The notes under the pieces were generated by a model. The model was given only the letters and a program-made list of their open reading frames with translations, made no database searches and was not told the DNA's origin. 12,012 nucleotides of DNA. It comes from Aquificaceae bacterium (lineage in GTDB: Bacteria; Aquificota; Aquificia; Aquificales; Aquificaceae). Each line of letters begins with the position of its first letter. Within the stretch, counting starts at the first letter, position 1. Below, one piece after another: positions 3,300 through 12,012 of the stretch. The position numbers and the translations under genes are program-made. The DNA lies in NCBI GenBank assembly GCA_026982025.1, contig JALSHX010000224.1, positions 1-12,012 on the forward strand. Direction: 5' to 3'.

Positions 3300-4109
3300 T
3301 TAGACAGCTGTATGTGATTCCTGTTTTCTTAGAAACCAGAATAGAACCACACCCACCCCTATCAGTCCAAGAGCTACCACCTGATTCCAGGTAAGACCCA
3401 GACCCTCAATGGGAGGAGTAACTCCCCTGTAAAACTCAAGGGCAAACCTGAGGGAACCGTAGAGGATCATGTATAGAACTATTACCTCCCCGTCAAAGGC
3501 TTTCCTGCGGTACATGATAAGGAGAATAATAAAGATGATGAGGTTTCCCAGAGCTTCAAGGATCTGTGTTGGATACAGAGCCATGCTGGGAGGTGCGGTG
3601 CCTCCCGGAGGAAAAACCACATAAAAGAAGGGAAACTCCTTCATAAAGTGGATCCCCACACTGAGGTCCTCCGCTCCCGGCACTGGTCTCCCGTAACAGC
3701 ATCCCGCGGAAGTGCAGCCGAGTCTTCCTATTGAGTGGGCGAGGACAAGGGACGGAGCCGCTGCGTCAGAGGCTTTCCACAGGGGAAGGTTCTTAATCCT
3801 GACAGCGAGAATAAAGGCAAGAATTGCACCCAGAAGCCCCCCGAAAAAAGAAACGCCCCCCTTCCAGATGGCAAAGATGTCAAGGGGCGTCTCCACGAAC
3901 TCGGGATGCTCTATGATAAAAGCCACCCTTGAACCCACTAAACCCGCAAGCACGGTTACGATGAAAACGAACTCTGAAGAGTCTGTGCCTAAACCCTCCC
4001 TCTTTGAAAATCTCAAAAATAGGAAGTAGCCGACGAGCATGGCAAGAGCAACGAGTACACCGTAGGTGGACACCTTCAAGCCGAAAAACTCAAAGAGCTG
4101 GGGATACAT
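3300..4109 (-). CDS. lgt: Prolipoprotein diacylglyceryl transferase
   Basis: Inner-membrane enzyme that moves a diacylglyceryl group from phosphatidylglycerol to the lipobox cysteine of prolipoproteins, the first step of lipoprotein maturation. The 269 residues contain about seven hydrophobic segments. The Lgt signature reads HSIGRLGCTSAGCCYGRP (125-142), with the expected Arg at 129; RFALEFYRG (221-229) supplies the second conserved Arg and Glu. The GG-x-S-x-x-GG motif reads GGVSFFGG (84-91): Phe89 stands where E. coli Lgt has His103. The ATG overlaps the stop of the upstream lipoprotein gene by one base (TAATG), so translation is probably coupled. It is the last gene of the - strand operon and converges on the cyclase gene with 4 bases between them; I see no intrinsic terminator there. 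Confidence 0.96.
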   Translation of the reverse strand: MYPQLFEFFGLKVSTYGVLVALAMLVGYFLFLRFSKREGLGTDSSEFVFIVTVLAGLVGSRVAFIIEHPEFVETPLDIFAIWKGGVSFFGGLLGAILAFILAVRIKNLPLWKASDAAAPSLVLAHSIGRLGCTSAGCCYGRPVPGAEDLSVGIHFMKEFPFFYVVFPPGGTAPPSMALYPTQILEALGNLIIFIILLIMYRRKAFDGEVIVLYMILYGSLRFALEFYRGVTPPIEGLGLTWNQVVALGLIGVGVVLFWFLRKQESHTAV

Positions 4110-4666
4110 TAAACCTCTACCTCCTCTATCTCAAGTTTAACCTTTTCTCCGTTCATCTCAAAACCTATTTCCCTGAAGTACCCCCTCTCGGACCTTGAAC
4201 CGAAGGTGATCTTCAGCCCCCTGCCGTTTTTCCTGTTGACAATTATAAGCTCCCTGAGTTTTCCGCCCTCAAAAACAACGATCTTGTCGTAAACCCCCAT
4301 CCTCTCCCTGAATACGGTCCTTCCTCCCCTGCAAAAGGAGTACTCGGTCCCCGATAAAACCTTTCCGAAGATTATATCCTCCGGCAGAAGGGGCAGAAGG
4401 TAGCACTTTCCTCTTGCACATATCCTGTCCCTCCTGATGCTTACATCTTTAACCTTTGCAACCTTTACTGTGTAAAATCCGTCGTACTTGGCTATGATCA
4501 TGGGAAATTTGACCGGACCGTACTTAAAGTGTCCGTAAATCCTGAACTCCCTCGGAACATGGTTAAGGGTGTACTCCGCGATAACTCTTTTTTCATCAGC
4601 ACACCTTTGGGCAACCTTTACGGAGCAGGAGGTGAGGAGAACCCAGATAATAAGCAGAAATATCAT
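4109..4666 (-). CDS. Putative small lipoprotein, function unknown
   Basis: A protein of 185 residues with a short hydrophobic leader and a lipobox ending LLTSC (Cys14), so it is likely lipid-modified and exported, probably by the Lgt encoded next to it. The rest is rich in predicted beta strands with alternating charges (EIGFEMNGEKVKLEIEEVEV at the C-terminus), recalling LolB/DUF4292-type outer-membrane lipoproteins, but I see no diagnostic motif and assign no function. Three further cysteines (about 82, 87, 111) lie in the body. Start choice: GTG at 4669 and ATG at 4666 are adjacent; I prefer the ATG because it forms TGATG with the hisD stop, the usual coupled arrangement. The 3' end overlaps the lgt start by one base. 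Confidence 0.75.
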   Translation of the reverse strand: MIFLLIIWVLLTSCSVKVAQRCADEKRVIAEYTLNHVPREFRIYGHFKYGPVKFPMIIAKYDGFYTVKVAKVKDVSIRRDRICARGKCYLLPLLPEDIIFGKVLSGTEYSFCRGGRTVFRERMGVYDKIVVFEGGKLRELIIVNRKNGRGLKITFGSRSERGYFREIGFEMNGEKVKLEIEEVEV

Positions 4667-5943
4667 CACGATTTTCTTATTCTCAACGCCAAGGCGTGAG
4701 CGGGCAATCCTTCAGCCTCCGCAAGGTTTATGGCAAGGTCCGAAAGACGGTCAAACCCTTCCCTTGAAACATAAATAATTGAACTCCTCTTTACAAAGTC
4801 GTAAACGCCGAGGGGAGAAAAGAACCTTGCGGTACCTCCCGTCGGAAGGGTGTGATTGGGTCCGAGGATGTAGTCGCCGAGGGGCTCCGTTGCGTACCTC
4901 CCCAGAAAAACGGCTCCCGCGTTTTTGATGTAAGGGAGAAGAGAAAAGGGGTCCTCCGTGATGACTTCAAGGTGTTCGGGAGCAATTATGTTAGCTACCT
5001 CACATGCCTGAGACATGTCCTTAACGAGAAAAACTGTTCCGAACCTCTCAAGGGACTTTTTTGCAATTTCATTTCTCTCAATACCCTCAAGAAGCTCGTA
5101 AACCCTCCCAACAACCTCCTTTGCAATCCTATCCGAGTCCGTCACAAGGATAGCACCTGCAAGCTCGTCGTGCTCCGCCTGAGAAAGGAGGTCAGCAGAT
5201 ACCCACGAGGAATCAGCCGTTGAATCCGCTATCACGAGAATCTCCGAGGGTCCCGCGATCATGTCAATGTCAACCGTGCCGTAAAGGAGCTTTTTTGCAA
5301 GCGCCACATATATGTTTCCCGGACCAACGATCTTGTCAACCCGGGGCACCGTCTCAGTCCCGAGGGCAAGGGCGGCAACCGCCTGAGCCCCTCCTACCTG
5401 AAAAACCCTGCTCACACCAGCAATGTAGGCAGCAGCAAGGGTGTACTTTCCCGGACGGGGGGTAACCATAATTATCTCTTCAACGCCAGCAACCGAGGCG
5501 GGAACGCAGTTCATCAGAACGGTTGAGGGGTAGCTTGCGGTTCCACCGGGAACATAAACCCCCACCTTCTCAAGGGGAAGAACCTTCTGACCCAGCAGTG
5601 ATCCCTCCTCCTCGGATATAAAGGACCTCTCAAGCTGTTTTTCGTGGAAAACCCTTATCCTCTCCTCGGCAATCTCAAGGGCTTCCCTCACACCTTCCTC
5701 AAGCTCTTCATAGGCGCGCTCAAGCTCCTCAAAGGGAATTTCCATGGTCTCCGGGGTAAGGTCAACGCCGTCGTATCTCTTTGTCAGCTCAATAACCGCC
5801 CTGTCTCCGCCTTCCCTGACCTCCTTTATTATTTCTCTTACTGTCTCTTCGTACTCTTCCGAAAGCACCTCGCCCCTGCGGGCGAGGTATTTGATTCTTT
5901 CATCGTATCTCCAGGAACCCCTCCTCAGGTCAACGACCTTCAT
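4666..5943 (-). CDS. hisD: Histidinol dehydrogenase
   Basis: Catalyses the last two oxidations of histidine synthesis, L-histidinol to L-histidine with NAD+, as a zinc enzyme in the cytoplasm. The 425 residues are the usual length. The dinucleotide region is GVYVPGGTASYPST (128-141) and the family motif AGPSEILVIAD (230-240) is present. Zinc ligands fit Gln255 and His258 (SQAEHDELAGA), Asp357 (GDYILGPNH) and His416 (GLPAHALALR); the catalytic pair is Glu323-His324 (APEHLEV). A TTG at 5946 directly precedes the ATG at 5943; I use the ATG. It follows the SEDS gene by 15 bases, without a convincing ribosome-binding site, and no other his gene is nearby, fitting the mixed operons of Aquificota-like genomes. 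Confidence 0.97.
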   Translation of the reverse strand: MKVVDLRRGSWRYDERIKYLARRGEVLSEEYEETVREIIKEVREGGDRAVIELTKRYDGVDLTPETMEIPFEELERAYEELEEGVREALEIAEERIRVFHEKQLERSFISEEEGSLLGQKVLPLEKVGVYVPGGTASYPSTVLMNCVPASVAGVEEIIMVTPRPGKYTLAAAYIAGVSRVFQVGGAQAVAALALGTETVPRVDKIVGPGNIYVALAKKLLYGTVDIDMIAGPSEILVIADSTADSSWVSADLLSQAEHDELAGAILVTDSDRIAKEVVGRVYELLEGIERNEIAKKSLERFGTVFLVKDMSQACEVANIIAPEHLEVITEDPFSLLPYIKNAGAVFLGRYATEPLGDYILGPNHTLPTGGTARFFSPLGVYDFVKRSSIIYVSREGFDRLSDLAINLAEAEGLPAHALALRIRKS

Positions 5944-5958
5944 CAAGTATGAATTCTA

Positions 5959-7077
5959 TCAGAGCATCTTCATGTAAAGCTGTCTTTTATATATTGCTCC
6001 AACTATTCCGAGCCCGATAAGAGATGCTATGAGGTGGCTGATTCCGTAGCTGACAAAGGGAAGGGGCATGCCTTTGGGCGGAAGGAGGTTGACCGCCATC
6101 ATGGTGTTGATGAGGACCGCAAGGAGTATGTTAAGGGTCACCCCCACCACAACCATTCTCCCGAAGGTGTCCGATGTCTCAAGGGCTATCCTTTTCAGCC
6201 TCCACAGAAGGACTCCGAAAAGTAAAAAAAGAAACAGAATCCCCCCAAGACCCAGCTCCTCACCGATGACCGCAAGGATGTAATCTGTATCCGCTTGAGT
6301 GAGGGGTCCCAATTTCTGGAATCCCTTTCCGTAACCCTGACCCAGCAGTCCGCCGTTCATAAAGGCGAGAAGGGATTGAATAACCTGATAGGAAGAGCCG
6401 AAAGGATCGCTGACAGGGTCCTGCCACGCGGTAAGGCGTCTTGCAACATAATCACCCCCGAAGATTATCATGAAGGTTCCCACAAGTGTAAAAAGTCCTC
6501 CCACCGGAAGATAAACCTTCGGTGATGTTCCTCCTATCCAAAGCATAAGCCATGCAACGATCATTATGAAAATTGCCATTCCTTTGTCGGGCTGAAGAAA
6601 AAGGAGGAAGGAATGTATGATTACTATGAGGATTGCCCAGCCGAAGAACCTGAGCCTCCTTATGTAGCCCTTCCTTGATACATAGTAGCTGATGAATATA
6701 ACGAGTATTAACTTGGAAAACTCCGAGGGTTGAATGCTTGAACCCACCAGCCACCTGTCAACAGCCTTTCCCATAAGGATTTTCTTAAAGAGAACTACGA
6801 GCAGTAAAATGATGGAGAGGGAAACAAGTCCGTAAACGAACCTCTGATTGTTCATTGCCCTGTAGTTTAGTGCGTGAGAGGTAAAGGACATAATCAGCAA
6901 ACCTGCAACGAAGGCAAGGGCAAACAAAAAGGGTCTCTTGAAGTGGTAAAGGGTGAGATCTCCTGCAATGTAAGGAGCCACCCTCACGCTCACTATAGCC
7001 AGAAGACCCATTAAAAAGAGGAGAATAAGACAGAAAAGGATAACGGGATCGGGATAAAGTTTCCTCAGCCTCTCCAT
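5959..7077 (-). CDS. ftsW: SEDS-family peptidoglycan polymerase (FtsW/RodA type)
   Basis: Polytopic membrane protein of 372 residues with about ten hydrophobic segments. SEDS proteins polymerise lipid II into glycan strands with a partner class B penicillin-binding protein during division (FtsW) or elongation (RodA). Motifs seen are QPSEF (116-120), QPDKG (162-166) and RRLTAWQDPVSDPFGSSYQ (213-231), in which Asp220 fits the essential SEDS aspartate. Also seen are GGLLGQGYGKG (242-252), TDYILAVIGEELGLGG (264-279) and LPPKGMPLPFVSYG (332-345). The wording of the last three is closer to FtsW than RodA, so the symbol is tentative. After SYG the usual Gly-Ser is Ile-Ser-His (346-348), an uncommon change. 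GGGG between the rpiB stop and this ATG leaves no spacer. No penicillin-binding partner gene is in the window. Confidence 0.92.
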   Translation of the reverse strand: MERLRKLYPDPVILFCLILLFLMGLLAIVSVRVAPYIAGDLTLYHFKRPFLFALAFVAGLLIMSFTSHALNYRAMNNQRFVYGLVSLSIILLLVVLFKKILMGKAVDRWLVGSSIQPSEFSKLILVIFISYYVSRKGYIRRLRFFGWAILIVIIHSFLLFLQPDKGMAIFIMIVAWLMLWIGGTSPKVYLPVGGLFTLVGTFMIIFGGDYVARRLTAWQDPVSDPFGSSYQVIQSLLAFMNGGLLGQGYGKGFQKLGPLTQADTDYILAVIGEELGLGGILFLFLLFGVLLWRLKRIALETSDTFGRMVVVGVTLNILLAVLINTMMAVNLLPPKGMPLPFVSYGISHLIASLIGLGIVGAIYKRQLYMKML

Positions 7078-7081
7078 CCCC

Positions 7082-7528
7082 TTACAGGTTCTCTTTCTCT
7101 ATTTCAAGTATAAGATCAACCCTCCTGCTGTGACGCCCTCCCTCAAAGGGAGTTTCAAGCCACACCTCCACTATTGAAAGGGCAAGATCTTCGCCCAGAA
7201 CCCTACCTCCGAGGCAGAGAACATTTGCGTCGTTGTGAAGCCTGCTCATCCTCGCCATGTATTCATTGAGACACAGTGCCGCCCTAACCCCTCTGAACTT
7301 GTTGGCTGTGATGGACATCCCTATTCCGGTCCCGCAAACGAGAATTCCCCTTTCCGCCCTTGCCTCCTGAACCGCAAGGGCAACTTCCCTGGCAAAGAGG
7401 GGATAGTGGGTTGACTCCTCGGAGGAGGCACCGAGGTCAATGACTTCATAACCCTTATCCAGCAGGAATTCCTTTATTCTCTCCTTAAGGGTATAGCCGG
7501 CATGATCGGAGCCGATAGCTATGGTCAT
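7082..7528 (-). CDS. rpiB: Ribose-5-phosphate isomerase B
   Basis: Interconverts ribose 5-phosphate and ribulose 5-phosphate in the pentose phosphate pathway; cytoplasmic. At 148 residues it has the usual RpiB/LacA/LacB length. [10 protein letters not shown] (7-16) opens the protein with the conserved Asp8-His9. [13 protein letters not shown] (61-73) holds the catalytic Cys65 and the anion-hole Gly residues; [15 protein letters not shown] (95-109) holds His98 and Asn99. GGRHSRRVD (130-138) supplies phosphate-binding Arg residues. The Cys65/His98 set favours RpiB over galactose-6-phosphate isomerase subunits. The ATG overlaps the gatB stop by four bases (ATGA), so it is probably translationally coupled to gatB. 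Four bases separate its stop from the next ATG. Confidence 0.96.
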
Positions 7529-8952
7529 TCTTTCAGGACCTCTCGCAGTATAGAGTTAACCAGCTTGGGATTTGCTTTTCCCTTCGTTTCCTTCATTACC
7601 TGACCCACAAAAAAGCCGATCAGCTTCTCCTCACCTTTCCTGAACCTCTCAACTTCCCCGGGAAATCTTGAAAGAACCTTCTCAACAACCTTTCTGAGGG
7701 CTGACTCGTCCGTTATCTGCCTGAGTCCCCTTTCCTCAACTATTGCTTCTGGGTTTTTGCCCGTCTGCACCATTTCCTTGATGACTTCCTTTCCTATTTT
7801 TGTTGATATTACATTCTGACTAATTAGCTTAACGAGGGAGGCAAGGTCCTTCGGACTGACGGGAGATTTCTCAAGGGGAATCTGCTTTTCGTTTAAAAGC
7901 CCAAGAAGGTCGTTTAGAAGCCAGTTTGCAACTGCTTTTGGCTCCGCACCCTCTTTTACCGCAGACTCAAAGAAGTCCCCGAGATCCTTATTGTTAACAA
8001 AGATGCCCGCCTCGTATCGTGAGATGGAGTACTCTCTTAGCATTCTCTCAAGCCTTTCTCCCGGAAGTTCTGGCATGGACTTTCTTATCTCCTCAATCCA
8101 CTCCTCACTGATCCTCAGTGGAAGAAGATCGGGATCGGGGAAGTACCTGTAGTCCTCCGCCTCTTCTTTGGTTCTCATTGTGAAGGTTTTTCCGCTCTGG
8201 GGATCAAAGGTCCTCGTTTCCTGAAGAACCTCTCCTCCCTCCTCAACGACCCTTATCTGCCTCTCAATCTCGTACTCAAGAGCCTTCTGCACAAAGCGGA
8301 AGGAGTTGACATTCTTTATTTCCGTCCTCGTTCCCAGCCTGTCGGATCCTTTTGGTCTTACGGAAACGTTTATATCACAGCGGAGCTGTCCTTTCTCCAT
8401 GTCAGCCCGGGAAACACCCGTGTAACGCATGATGTTTCTCAGGTTCTCAAGGAATATTCTTGCCTCCTCCGGGGATCTTATGTCAGGTTCCGTGACTATC
8501 TCCATGAGCGGTGTCCCCGCCCTGTTGAGGTCAACATAGCTTTTATCACCTTCGTGTATGTTCTTTCCAGCATCCTCCTCAATGTGCAGTCTCCGTATCC
8601 TGATCCTCCTCCTTTCCCCTTCAGGAAGCTCAATCTCAAGCCAGCCGTCGGTCGCAAGGGGTCTCTCGTACTGAGAAATCTGATAACCCTTTGGAAGGTC
8701 CGGGTAAAAATAATTCTTCCTTGCAAATATGGACTCGGGGTGAACCCTGCAGTTGAGGGCAAGGGAAGCCCTGATGGCAAATTCCACAGCCCTTCTGTTG
8801 AGGACCGGAAGAGACCCGGGCATTCCGAGGCAAACGGGACACACATTGGTGTTGGGTTCGGAGCCAAACTCAACCCTGCAGGAACAAAAGAGCTTTGTGG
8901 CTGTGTCCATCTGCACATGGATCTCAAGCCCGATTACCGGCTCGTAGGGCAT
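7525..8952 (-). CDS. gatB: Asp-tRNA(Asn)/Glu-tRNA(Gln) amidotransferase subunit B
   Basis: Subunit of GatCAB that binds mischarged Glu-tRNA(Gln) or Asp-tRNA(Asn), activates the carboxylate with ATP and receives ammonia from GatA. The 475 residues are full length. [13 protein letters not shown] (3-15) is the family N-terminus. Zinc cysteines fit C23/C25 and C38/C41 (LFCSC ... CPVCLGMPG). [19 protein letters not shown] (78-96), HIEEDAGK (123-130) and [17 protein letters not shown] (141-157) are cradle-domain signatures; a helical tRNA-binding (YqeY-like) tail runs from about 325 to the end. gatA and gatC are not in the window. The stop of the M6 peptidase frame lies 8 bases upstream and no clear ribosome-binding site fits there, so the gene may be coupled or made from a near-leaderless transcript. 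Confidence 0.98.
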
Positions 8953-8959
8953 AAAGCTA

Positions 8960-8965
8960 ATTATA
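8960..8965 (-). promoter_or_regulatory. Possible -10 box for gatB
   Basis: A perfect TATAAT on the - strand overlaps the stop codon of the M6 frame and is followed by exactly seven bases before the gatB ATG, so transcription would begin at or next to the ATG, a leaderless geometry. No good -35 (TTGACA-like) stands 16-18 bases upstream, so this is a weak prediction. It could maintain expression of the six downstream genes if the interrupted M6 gene causes polarity. Confidence 0.25.
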
Positions 8966-9755
8966 ACTTTCTACCCACTCTTGCCACCGTCCTTCTTAAA
9001 ATCAGAAAACCTACGGGGATCAAGGTGATCAAAGCTTGCGATCGGTTTTGCCCCTCACAGCCGGTGTCCGGCTCCTCATTTACAGATTCAAAGCCGTAGC
9101 CCGACAGAGGCACTCTAAAAACAGGAGTGTCAGGGTCATCGGAACTTACCTCAAGGCTGGCGGAGTAAACCCTTTCCTCACCGGGAGCGAAAACAACGAC
9201 AATAGAACAGTAATCCCCGGATAACAGGGTGAATACTGAAGTACCGCAGGATTGACTACCGCCGGAAGTTTCAAGTCTGAAGAACGAAGAGTCCGAACCG
9301 GAAATTACGATGTCGTTAACATTCAGGTCAGCATTGCCTCTGTTCACTATAAGAAATTCTTTACTTGCTGTGTTTCCAACCCTCACCGAACCAAAATCGT
9401 GGGAATCCGGCATTACGGAAATATCGGGCTGTGCTGGTCCTGAGCCGAAGCTTATGCTTATAATCGTATCCTGACCGTCATCCCTTATGTTGTAAATAGT
9501 AAATCCGGGATCAGGACCTCCATAAAGTCTGTTTGAGGGAGAGGTGGTCGGTCCGAATTCAACCGAGCCGGATGTCCCCGGAAAGGGATCGCCCGGGTCG
9601 CCATCGTTTCTGTTATTCTCAAGGTCAAACATTCCGTCCGCCTGCTCCACCGCAACCCTGTAGTGTTCAGCGGAGCAAAGTGCTGAACCGTGGTCCCTGT
9701 TGCACTCGTACCTGTTGTCCTCATTGGTTGATGTCGCCCTTGATTCGTCAATGTG
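8961..9755 (-). CDS. M6 peptidase, C-terminal part after the in-frame TAG
   Basis: This is not a separate gene: it is in frame with the catalytic half and opens directly with HIDES, the continuation of the family motif LLIWHIDE. The remainder of the M6 domain follows ([13 protein letters not shown] ... GDPGDPFPG ... [16 protein letters not shown]). An ASH (choice-of-anchor D) domain starts with [20 protein letters not shown] (full-gene residues about 532-645) and has a Cys pair 12 residues apart. The end is Gly-Cys (Cys656), a short hydrophobic stretch (about 664-676) and an Arg/Lys tail ([11 protein letters not shown]), resembling a CTERM surface-sorting signal. It has no further stop or frameshift. 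A GTG at 9650 could be called as a start, but I see no reason for initiation there. Confidence 0.8.
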
Positions 9756-9758
9756 CTA
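9756..9758 (-). other. In-frame TAG at the conserved Trp of the M6 LLIWHIDE motif
   Basis: The frame reads GLPGEDLLI, TAG, HIDES. In M6 peptidases this stretch is typically LLIWHIDE, so the TAG corresponds to Trp and differs from TGG by one base. The reading frame is the same on both sides. Confidence 0.85.
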
Positions 9759-11024
9759 GATCAAAAGATCCTCTCCCGGCAAACCCGCGTCAAATCCTAT
9801 TCTCCTTCTGTTCTCAATAAGGAAGTACTCACACGTTGAACCTGGCGTGCCGTCAAGAATTTGATAAACGCTTCCCTGATCCGTTTCCACGGGAGAGATC
9901 CTGATGTTTGAAGTGCTCACCCTAAGTTTATTTGGATTTACCCAGCCGAGGGAAGCCTTCTCCCACGGTCCGAGGTGTGCCGGCCGGTCCCCGGGCACCG
10001 TTTGATAGTTCCATGAACCCGCAGCCATTAGGGACCAGGCTCCCACACCCCTTGAGGTGTAATCAATATCATAAAGGTCGGGGATCCCGAGGGCATGGGC
10101 ATACTCATGAGCGGGAACTCCCACGGTCAGAATGTCCGATGGAGGCAACATTTCTGGGACTATGAAGTAATCCTCAACTTCAACATTCCGCGAGGGGTCC
10201 GCACCGCACGGATCGCTGGAAACATAGGACCTTCCGAAGGCAGAGGATAGAACCCACCTGTGGGACCATACATCGTTGGAATCTCCCGATGCCTCCTGCC
10301 CGAAACCCTGATGAACTATTGCAACCACATCAACTCTGCAGTCTCCGTCGGTGTCAAATACAGAGTAATCCAGCTGGGAATCTGCGAGCTGAACAGCCTC
10401 GTAAACAAGCTCACCCACATTCACATCAATGATCGGAACATTTGGGTCATCCGCACCGTAGTAAGCTCTGCTTTTAGAAAGCTGGATCCATCCCGTTACA
10501 GAACCCGTAACGCTGAAGTTTCCATAGGACACCTCACGATAGTAATCCTTCAGTGATCCCGTCCCATCCCCGAAGAAGACCCTTTGAAAATCTGCTCTCG
10601 TAAATGTGATTGTTGTATCACTGTAATTTACGAGAATTACCGGAAGCTGTCCCGTTCCCGAAGGATTAACCACCCTCCTTTGCTGAGCCTTTATAAAACT
10701 CATTGCCCGCAGAAACGTTGCTTTATTTTTTGGTCTCACATGCTTGGGTATTCCAACAGGCGGCGGACCGTCCGCTCGCCAATGAGTCGGAACAAGCCTG
10801 CCATCTGTGTCAATCCCGGCATAGACCCAATAGCCTCTTGAATCTTTAATAACTGTGTACCCCTCAAGGGTTTCAAAGCCTCCAATCCTCTCATCCCCCC
10901 ACTGTCTTAGAACCAGCGGGCTTCCGTCAGGCTGGGCAAAAATCCTTGGAAGATTTAAGGCAGGAATCGCGTAAAGGCTCAAATGGGCGCAAAGAATCAA
11001 AAGAAGGAACAGAATTACACCCAT
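9756..11024 (-). CDS. M6-family (immune inhibitor A-like) metallopeptidase, N-terminal and catalytic part
   Basis: Secreted zinc protease. Residues 1-19 form a hydrophobic signal peptide. Residues about 20-100 match the propeptide seen in M6-domain proteins (FAQPDGSPLVLRQWGDE ... TLEGYTVIKD ... YWVYAG). The catalytic domain from about 125 includes LPVILVNYSD, an acidic DTDGDCRVD (224-232) that could bind calcium, and the zinc motif HEYAHALGIPDLYD (306-319) with His306, Glu307 and His310. The Met-turn-like WSLMAAGSW is at 330-338. The frame stops at TAG after LLI (422), before the end of the M6 domain. The start is well supported: GGGGAGG lies eight bases before the ATG at 11024. The truncated form would be secreted, unanchored and possibly inactive or unstable, because the family motif around LLIWHIDE is lost. 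Confidence 0.9.
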   Translation of the reverse strand: MGVILFLLLILCAHLSLYAIPALNLPRIFAQPDGSPLVLRQWGDERIGGFETLEGYTVIKDSRGYWVYAGIDTDGRLVPTHWRADGPPPVGIPKHVRPKNKATFLRAMSFIKAQQRRVVNPSGTGQLPVILVNYSDTTITFTRADFQRVFFGDGTGSLKDYYREVSYGNFSVTGSVTGWIQLSKSRAYYGADDPNVPIIDVNVGELVYEAVQLADSQLDYSVFDTDGDCRVDVVAIVHQGFGQEASGDSNDVWSHRWVLSSAFGRSYVSSDPCGADPSRNVEVEDYFIVPEMLPPSDILTVGVPAHEYAHALGIPDLYDIDYTSRGVGAWSLMAAGSWNYQTVPGDRPAHLGPWEKASLGWVNPNKLRVSTSNIRISPVETDQGSVYQILDGTPGSTCEYFLIENRRRIGFDAGLPGEDLLI

Positions 11025-11030
11025 TACTCA

Positions 11031-11039
11031 AACCTCCCC
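11031..11039 (-). promoter_or_regulatory. Strong ribosome-binding site of the M6 peptidase gene
   Basis: On the - strand GGGGAGGTT carries a consensus GGAGG (11033-11037) eight bases before the ATG at 11024. It is the clearest ribosome-binding site in the window and fixes this start, which also gives a proper signal peptide. Confidence 0.8.
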
Positions 11040-11040
11040 A

Positions 11041-11062
11041 AATTTTTTATTTTTTTATTTTA
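11041..11062. other. A/T tract upstream of the M6 peptidase gene
   Basis: On the - strand, runs of 4, 7 and 6 adenines separated by single T residues lie between the GC hairpin and the ribosome-binding site. They are A, not U, in the - strand transcript, so they do not make the hairpin an intrinsic terminator for the gene upstream; on the + strand the T run precedes the hairpin, which is also the wrong order. Possible roles are an unstructured leader or bent DNA. Confidence 0.5.
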
Positions 11063-11065
11063 CCA

Positions 11066-11086
11066 ACCGCCGCCTTCGGCGGCGGT
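11066..11086. repeat. Intergenic GC-rich hairpin with TTC/GAA triloop
   Basis: ACCGCCGCC and GGCGGCGGT are a perfect 9-base inverted repeat around TTC (GAA on the - strand). It lies between the ASH-repeat gene and the M6 peptidase gene, both on the - strand. No U tract follows in either direction. The 13-base core is repeated at 2678-2690. Possible roles are an mRNA stabiliser or processing barrier, a REP-like element, or a non-canonical terminator. Confidence 0.7.
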
Positions 11087-11093
11087 GAATGTG

Positions 11094-11099
11094 ATTATA
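11094..11099 (-). promoter_or_regulatory. Possible -10 box for the M6 peptidase gene
   Basis: A perfect TATAAT on the - strand overlaps the stop codon of the ASH-repeat gene. Initiation about seven bases on would place the GC hairpin at the very 5' end of the transcript. No convincing -35 is seen at 16-18 bases, so support is weak. Confidence 0.3.
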
Positions 11100-12012
11100 C
11101 GAATCTTCTGAAAGTCCTGAAAGCAAACATCAAGAAAGCCACTACCAGATAAATAAGGGAATTGGAAGAGACCGCACTGCAACCTCCCGAACCACCGCCT
11201 CCGCCTCCTCCGGCTCCGCCCCCTCCGACTGTTACGCCATTGGCGGAGAGGGTTACGGTGAAGGTTGCGTTATTCTGGTCATTACTGTTGATGGTTATGT
11301 TTGCCGAAATACTTCCAGCGGTTGAAGGTGTCACCGTCACATCAATGGTACAGCTATCACCCGCTTTTAGGGTAAATGTCAAGCTTCCGCAAGGATTGCT
11401 TCCCCCGTTGGCATTAATATTGAAGTCACTCTTATTAGTTCCTCCTAAGGAAATACCTGAAACATTAAGCTGTGCACTTCCCTTGTTGGATATGGTAACA
11501 GTCCTGGATTGAGACGTTGAACCCACATTGACATCTCCGAAATCAATACTTGTGGGCGATACATCAATGATCGGCTTTTGTTCAAAAGTAACCTGAAGGT
11601 TTACATTTGTAGGTGATGACGGAACGTCCGACTGAATCTGAAGGGTTCCCGTGTAGTTGCTCACCGCGGTGCTGGATCGGGCTTCCACGGTAACCGCACA
11701 GCTCTGATTTGCCGGGAGCGTAACAGGGTAAGAACCCGAACCCTTACAGTTGTCCTGTGATATGGAAAAGATCGTCCCGCTCTGGCTTATTGAGATATTT
11801 TGTAGGGTGAGATCAACACAACCCGCGGATATGGTAAAGGTTTGGGATATTGTCTGAGTTACATCAATAGTCCCGAAGTCGTGAGATGTGGGACTAACCG
11901 ATACCTGAGAATTTGCACCCTCCCCAGTAAGGGGAACATTTACATTGGGATTACTGGGATCGTTGGTGTCAATTATAGATAAAGCGTCGCTAAAGTTACC
12001 GACAGAAGAAGG
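11095..12012 (-). CDS. Secreted ASH-repeat (choice-of-anchor D) protein with C-terminal sorting tail (5' end outside window)
   Basis: The frame is open to the right edge, so the GTG at 11688 is not the start; 305 residues are visible. They contain the end of one ASH/choice-of-anchor-D repeat (ending VPLTGEG, 26-32), a second (about 33-142, VSVSPTSHDFGTIDV) and a third (about 146-260, IDVSPTSIDFGDVNVGS). Repeats 2 and 3 each have a Cys pair near the end (15 and 12 residues apart), probably a disulfide in an exported protein. A Gly-rich linker (263-277) leads to Gly-Gly-Cys278, a hydrophobic segment (about 285-298) and RTFRRFV at the end, a CTERM-like surface-sorting signal. Ser, Thr and Asn richness fits an extracellular beta-sandwich protein. 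Such repeats are usually accessory modules, so the main function, if enzymatic, lies upstream outside the window. Confidence 0.8.
   Translation of the reverse strand, partial: PSSVGNFSDALSIIDTNDPSNPNVNVPLTGEGANSQVSVSPTSHDFGTIDVTQTISQTFTISAGCVDLTLQNISISQSGTIFSISQDNCKGSGSYPVTLPANQSCAVTVEARSSTAVSNYTGTLQIQSDVPSSPTNVNLQVTFEQKPIIDVSPTSIDFGDVNVGSTSQSRTVTISNKGSAQLNVSGISLGGTNKSDFNINANGGSNPCGSLTFTLKAGDSCTIDVTVTPSTAGSISANITINSNDQNNATFTVTLSANGVTVGGGGAGGGGGGGSGGCSAVSSNSLIYLVVAFLMFAFRTFRRFV
11182..11226 (-). repeat. Low-complexity poly-Gly linker coding tract
   Basis: GGN-rich codons encode 13 Gly, one Ala and one Ser in 15 residues, just before the Gly-Cys of the sorting tail. It is a flexible spacer between the last ASH repeat and the membrane or anchor segment. 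Slippage in such tracts can vary in length between strains. Confidence 0.75.

Follow-up and report, generated by a model that had tools for sequence, protein, structure and literature searches.

An in-frame TAG codon in an M6 peptidase gene of an Aquificaceae bacterium, most likely an ordinary stop

Among described proteins, the gene studied here is closest to the M6 peptidases, including InhA (immune inhibitor A, PDB 4yu5/4yu6), with which it has the HExxH region in common; the profile of our alignment A4 matched 4yu5 with an E value of 1.1e-26. InhA also carries a Trp in the alignment column discussed below, in a second aligned stretch that is not significant alone (8.9 bits, i-Evalue 3.6). 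Relative to the M6 family, as represented by TIGR03296, PF05547 and InhA, the present gene differs in having a stop at that codon and in bearing a downstream choice-of-anchor D domain followed by a C-terminal tail; a virulence role in the Aquificaceae lineage is not implied by this resemblance. Bacterial genomes also contain ordinary nonsense-interrupted genes. These are alike in having one in-frame stop, in being accessory and in keeping the remaining frame, and we found no feature that distinguishes the present gene from them.

The window, by which we mean the whole stretch of DNA that was analysed, is a contig (C224) of 12,012 bases in a draft MAG of an Aquificaceae bacterium (G000; 1.37 Mb in 286 contigs, completeness 85.8%, contamination 1.83%). 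In 12 of the 15 genus mates searched, a full-length gatB was found with 78–84% identity to that of the window, and on this basis the contig was assigned to the genus lineage; among the remaining three, gatB was found in pieces in G014 and G011, and none was found in G009. Further genes of the window were recognized by match as lysS, a gene for a GGDEF protein, lgt, hisD, an ftsW/rodA-type gene and rpiB, and the gene at 4109–4669 had no match.

The M6 frame on both sides of the TAG codon

Positions 9756–9758 of the window read CTA on the plus strand and hence TAG on the minus strand, where they form codon 423 of the M6 gene. An earlier note, made from the DNA sequence, had described this codon as an in-frame TAG in an otherwise open M6 frame, and such a frame is indeed what we observed: it runs from 11024 to 8961 on the minus strand, has this single internal stop and ends in TAA, so that the TAG splits it into pieces of 422 and 264 amino acids. 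The 5' part (9759–11024, minus strand; 422 codons from the ATG) matched PF05547 (E 7.4e-33) and TIGR03296 (E 6e-62, profile positions 1–283 of 286) and begins with a hydrophobic stretch that may be a signal peptide. A ribosome-binding-site-like GGGGAGG, read by eye, lies 5' of the ATG at 11033–11039 on the minus strand. The segment HEYAHALGIPDLYD (10068–10109, minus strand), which is conserved in the alignment, contains the HExxH motif in the form HEYAH, which we take to have a zinc-binding role.

The 3' part (8961–9755, minus strand; 264 codons plus TAA) encodes the remainder of the M6 region, a choice-of-anchor D (ASH-type) domain and a C-terminal tail. Motifs that are common, whole or in part, to relatives lie at 9576–9755 on the minus strand and are absent from the truncated product, and the choice-of-anchor D domain (9126–9440, minus strand) matched NF012200 with 70.7 bits (cut-off 45), as had been anticipated in the claim that the C-terminal half keeps M6 motifs and an ASH domain. 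The tail (8964–9068, minus strand) has a Cys, a hydrophobic stretch and a basic end and looks like a sorting signal by eye; it matched none of the NCBIfam families. On the same strand, gatB (7525–8952) starts 8 bases past the terminal stop of the M6 gene, and on the other side lies an upstream gene (11095–12012) with two choice-of-anchor D domains over the cut-off, truncated by the contig end. Between this upstream gene and the M6 gene we noted a GC-rich hairpin (11067–11090) that is followed by an A-rich run on the minus strand, read by eye; the terminator scan did not report it. The promoter and terminator scans of the region stood at chance (1 found against 1.9 expected; 2 found against 2.1 expected). 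In a search of PHROGs the 5' part had no match, and the choice-of-anchor D regions had few, the best (E 1e-16) linking the upstream protein to a family noted as 'hydrolase'.

That both parts belong to one reading frame, as the note had held, is supported by homology: the 3' part is 47% identical to an intact ortholog, and the TIGR03296 match runs through the codon, covering profile positions 1–286 with one TAG counted inside it. The score for this family was 210.1 bits from the 5' part alone and 212.5 bits through the stop (cut-off 110.8); the gene is a TIGR03296 member with an interrupted frame, the interruption being the TAG at codon 423. The estimate that 264 further codons would be free of stops by chance only a few times in a million was also reproduced (3.1e-6 with equal codon use, and 2.1e-6 with the base composition of the piece itself). 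The codon-use score was 0.041 for the 5' part and 0.044 for the 3' part, against −0.08 to −0.40 for the other five frames of the 3' part; for reference, 120 long open stretches had a mean of 0.122 (sd 0.051), and 360 wrong-frame stretches a mean of −0.171 (sd 0.093, highest 0.195). Because the training set of the scale consisted of stop-to-stop stretches of 200 codons or more, both M6 parts among them, this score shows only that the two parts resemble each other and look coding. We regard homology as stronger evidence for the shared frame than either the codon-use score or the length of the stop-free run.

Orthologs and the gene island beside gatB

An uninterrupted ortholog of 707 amino acids is present in G014, a same-genus Aquificaceae MAG (JALTVH010000239.1), in the same place beside gatB and with an identical domain order, differing from the window's gene by its uninterrupted frame. 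It is 56% identical to the 5' part and 47% identical to the 3' part (L003/L100), and it has a Trp codon at the position of the TAG. In alignment A4, from which the weak TIGR03296 matches in G100, G015, G107 and G108 were left out, the TAG column holds Trp in six of the seven homologues, two of which (L169 and L171) are closely related, and Leu in the seventh, a Chloroflexota MAG protein; none of the seven has a stop there. The suggestion that the codon falls on an almost invariant Trp thus stands as to the predominance of Trp, and is qualified by the Leu and by the relatedness of two of the six.

The M6 gene is sparsely distributed. The 5' part was matched at 1e-10 in 3 of 61 genomes (its own and 60 relatives, its own included), and TIGR03296 was matched at 10 places in 9 of the 136 genomes of the phylum, 5 of these places, in 4 of the 9 genomes, lying over the cut-off; only the window's match, among the 10, has a stop inside it. 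Within the genus, 2 of 17 genomes (G000 and G014) hold an M6 gene over the family cut-off, and G015 has a weak partial match below it. The 3' part was matched in 6 of the 17, its own included, and beyond G000 and G014 these matches cover only residue 96 onward, which is the choice-of-anchor D region. A scan of a collection of genome contigs with the single protein found no relative, and one with alignment A2 found three loci. At the DNA level, a search of 64 genomes of the family returned only the window itself and a stretch of 123 bases in G014 with 73% identity.

The surroundings of gatB were compared in the 12 genus mates whose gatB locus is complete (L036–L047). An ispE-like gene is next to gatB in seven of them (G001, G002, G003, G005, G007, G010 and G012), with a small open frame between the two in G002 and G007; no ispE-like gene was seen in the stretch read in G004, G008, G013 and G015, and the stretch of G006 ends too soon. 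A profile match identified IspE in G007 and on contig C14 of the window's own genome; the other ispE-like genes were named by resemblance. In G014, a gene of 483 amino acids and two M6 genes lie between the ispE-like gene and gatB. In the own genome, the M6 and choice-of-anchor D genes of C224 adjoin gatB, and the end of C14 carries the beginning of a second M6 gene (L002:2–628; 31% identity over query residues 8–174) beside ispE, with an open frame of 114 amino acids between. The two contigs probably flank one gap in a single gene island, judging by their gene content. In G000 and G014, this M6/choice-of-anchor D island was seen at window positions 8961–12012, at L093:1–1928 and at L076:3814–10805, and because the M6 genes lie in an island seen in these two genomes we consider them accessory; with 2 of the 17 genus genomes holding it over the family cut-off, the M6 gene may well be dispensable.

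Tails with a Cys, a hydrophobic stretch and a basic end, resembling sorting signals, were noted at several places in these and related loci (window 8964–9068 and 11098–11181; L076:4799–6250 and 6611–8401; L171:1634–5179). When six tails were compared with sorting models, none but the tail of G014's second M6 protein came near one (Synerg-CTERM, 22.0 bits, cut-off 22.5). Very long frames of 1,618 and 1,614 amino acids with many choice-of-anchor D domains occur in a different genus of this family (G027:C53 and G087:C69).

Use of TAG, and recoding, editing or switching

TAG is an ordinary stop in the window's genome. Release factor RF1 is present (563 bits, cut-off 423), TAG terminates 2 of 13 tandem-like gene pairs, and it ends 23 of 150 long open stretches within contigs, a count that includes the window's own and perhaps some antisense stretches. 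A change of the genetic code was rejected on the presence of RF1 and the use of TAG as a terminator. ARAGORN read a CUA anticodon at none of the 29 tRNA matches in the own genome, which is incomplete and in which tRNA-Trp was likewise not found, nor at any of the 43 tRNA matches of the genus mate G007 (a single contig, 99% complete), a set made up of 30 loci, 12 further stretches and one tRNA-Tyr in a neighbouring locus. PylS was over the cut-off in none of the 17 genus genomes, the own genome being 85.8% complete, and in 1 of 14 control genomes; the weak PylS match in G000 is the window's lysS. Pyrrolysine insertion at the TAG was rejected on the finding that PylS is under the cut-off in all 17 genomes. 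Selenocysteine is a matter of UGA, and it was rejected since the codon here is TAG; a tRNA-SeC (anticodon TCA) is present in the own genome (L034:1500–1596) and in G007 (L168:221–319).

The earlier note had offered three readings of the codon: a very recent nonsense mutation, a base error, or a natural readthrough or phase switch toggling between a released truncated form and an anchored full form. The first two both fit our findings and are weighed below, and the third found no support. Between 8900 and 11100 we observed two short direct repeats, each in two copies, and a single inverted pair (10049–10061 and 10858–10870), and no repeat of at least 12 bases spans the codon; the one tandem array (11043–11061) is outside the M6 gene, and no homopolymer of at least 5 bases occurs within 9691–9830. 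The codon thus lies in neither a repeat tract nor an invertible segment of the kind expected in a phase-variable gene. Set beside the uninterrupted ortholog, the ordinary use of TAG as a stop and the failure to find a CUA anticodon at the tRNA matches read or PylS over its cut-off, these results leave the proposed released/anchored switch unsupported.

Basal readthrough of a leaky amber stop, yielding a little surface-held, full-length protease beside a truncated exported form, would agree with the well-kept 3' frame. RNA folding around the codon was unremarkable (z 0.15, −0.06 and −0.80) and speaks neither for this reading nor against it. However, the same-genus ortholog is uninterrupted, so that the stop is not seen to be conserved and any such arrangement would have to be very young and lineage-specific; RF1 is present, tRNA matches with a CUA anticodon and PylS over the cut-off were lacking as described above, and the truncated product would also be without conserved M6 motifs. 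We consider low-level natural readthrough very unlikely.

Conversion of the stop to a sense codon by A-to-I editing of the mRNA is the least credible of the readings, even though the codon would be decoded as Trp if its middle base became inosine. According to PMC12255301, natural bacterial mRNA editing is tied to TACG, with YTACGAA as the best context, and a change at +1 abolished editing of hokB. The present site, CTAGCAC, is without the TACG motif; it has mismatches at +1 and +2 and departs from YTACGAA at 3 of 7 bases. Sites two bases off TACG do exist, making up 1.6% of the 433 sites edited under TadA overexpression in the same source (PMC12255301).

State of the frame and origin of the stop

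There is no further stop among the 686 sense codons of the M6 frame. Under neutral change, and ignoring indels, a second stop would be reached with 95% chance after 78–102 substitutions, or 3.8–5.0% per site (transition weight 1 to 4). Counted with distant outgroups, 34 changes fell on the window side and 33 on the G014 side for the 3' part, and 47 and 42, respectively, for the 5' part; the 3' part thus shows no excess change relative to the G014 side. Synonymous sites are near saturation against G014 (dS 4.05 and 3.46), and dN/dS is for that reason uninformative in this comparison. As no second stop is present and amino-acid changes are even between the two sides, the lesion is either young, dating back at most about 4–5% neutral change per site, or unreal.

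That the gene is an old pseudogene, or is split with a 3' part that restarts by itself, is accordingly improbable in the extreme, even more so than readthrough. An in-frame GTG and an in-frame ATG do lie 35 and 41 codons past the stop. Nevertheless, the frame shows neither a further stop nor excess change, both parts can be aligned with the G014 ortholog over their whole length, and a product restarted at these codons would be without a signal peptide, with no clear ribosome site seen by eye before the GTG.

A base error in the draft MAG, arising in sequencing, assembly or strain mixing and leaving the gene of the living cell intact, is the main competing reading and a serious possibility, though one to which we give less than an even chance. 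It accounts for the same facts without any biology: the TAG is one base from a Trp codon, and exactly one lesion in a gene otherwise intact, with no other stop and a 3' part free of excess change, is the expected look of an error. The genome is moreover in 286 contigs and 85.8% complete, and the contig of the same-genus G014 has a coverage of about 8, a figure that belongs to G014 and not to the window. Against it stands the lack of a homopolymer of at least 5 bases within 9691–9830 and, weakly, the state of other genes. In a small sample of 24 contigs (195 kb), in which only same-frame stops were counted and frameshifts lay outside the count, we found 15 same-frame pairs with at least 150 codons per side; in 13 of these a start codon lies no more than 6 codons from the stop, the arrangement expected of tandem genes as judged from the frames, one is antisense to what we take to be a ClpB-like gene, and the single pair resembling a broken gene is the window's. 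Similarly, none of the 16 ABC_tran matches in the own genome, three of which are in one protein and three under the cut-off, has an internal stop. No crowd of such stops shows in this genome, and since neither a second broken-looking pair nor an interrupted ABC_tran match was seen, no high error rate shows either.

We favour, with moderate confidence, a single, recent and sporadic nonsense mutation in an accessory gene for a probably secreted M6 metalloprotease, among other reasons because the intact G014 ortholog beside gatB carries a Trp codon at this position. The weights given to all these readings are judgements and not computed figures. The stop itself is most likely ordinary, without any sign of a built-in switch. 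If the base is real, as we suppose, translation would start normally and halt at the TAG, codon 423, and the product, which the signal-like start suggests to be secreted, would keep the HExxH motif but be cut short before the conserved last stretch of the M6 region, and would also be without its choice-of-anchor D domain and C-terminal tail. The TIGR03296 profile nearly ends at the TAG, yet conserved M6 motifs continue downstream of it, and these are partly common to M6 relatives whose aligned sequences show no choice-of-anchor D domain, G014's second M6 protein being one example. With these motifs placed 3' of the stop, the truncated form would not be merely the enzyme minus its anchor, and it is probably inactive. 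Modelling of the uninterrupted G014 protein with AlphaFold gave a poor result (6 sequences; mean pLDDT 52.8, residues 364–538 below 50), and for this reason we concluded nothing from it on the Trp or on the truncated fold.

A real stop would leave about 800 untranslated bases before gatB, and polarity on gatB may follow. A promoter-like match (10/12) lies at 8960–8987, at the end of the M6 gene and directly before gatB; such a match is at chance level for the region, and it could spare gatB from polarity. The locus has little significance on its own, and it offers a clean case for separating a lone nonsense codon from recoding, through an intact ortholog in place, normal use of TAG, the RF1 and tRNA content of the genome, and the lack of further decay.
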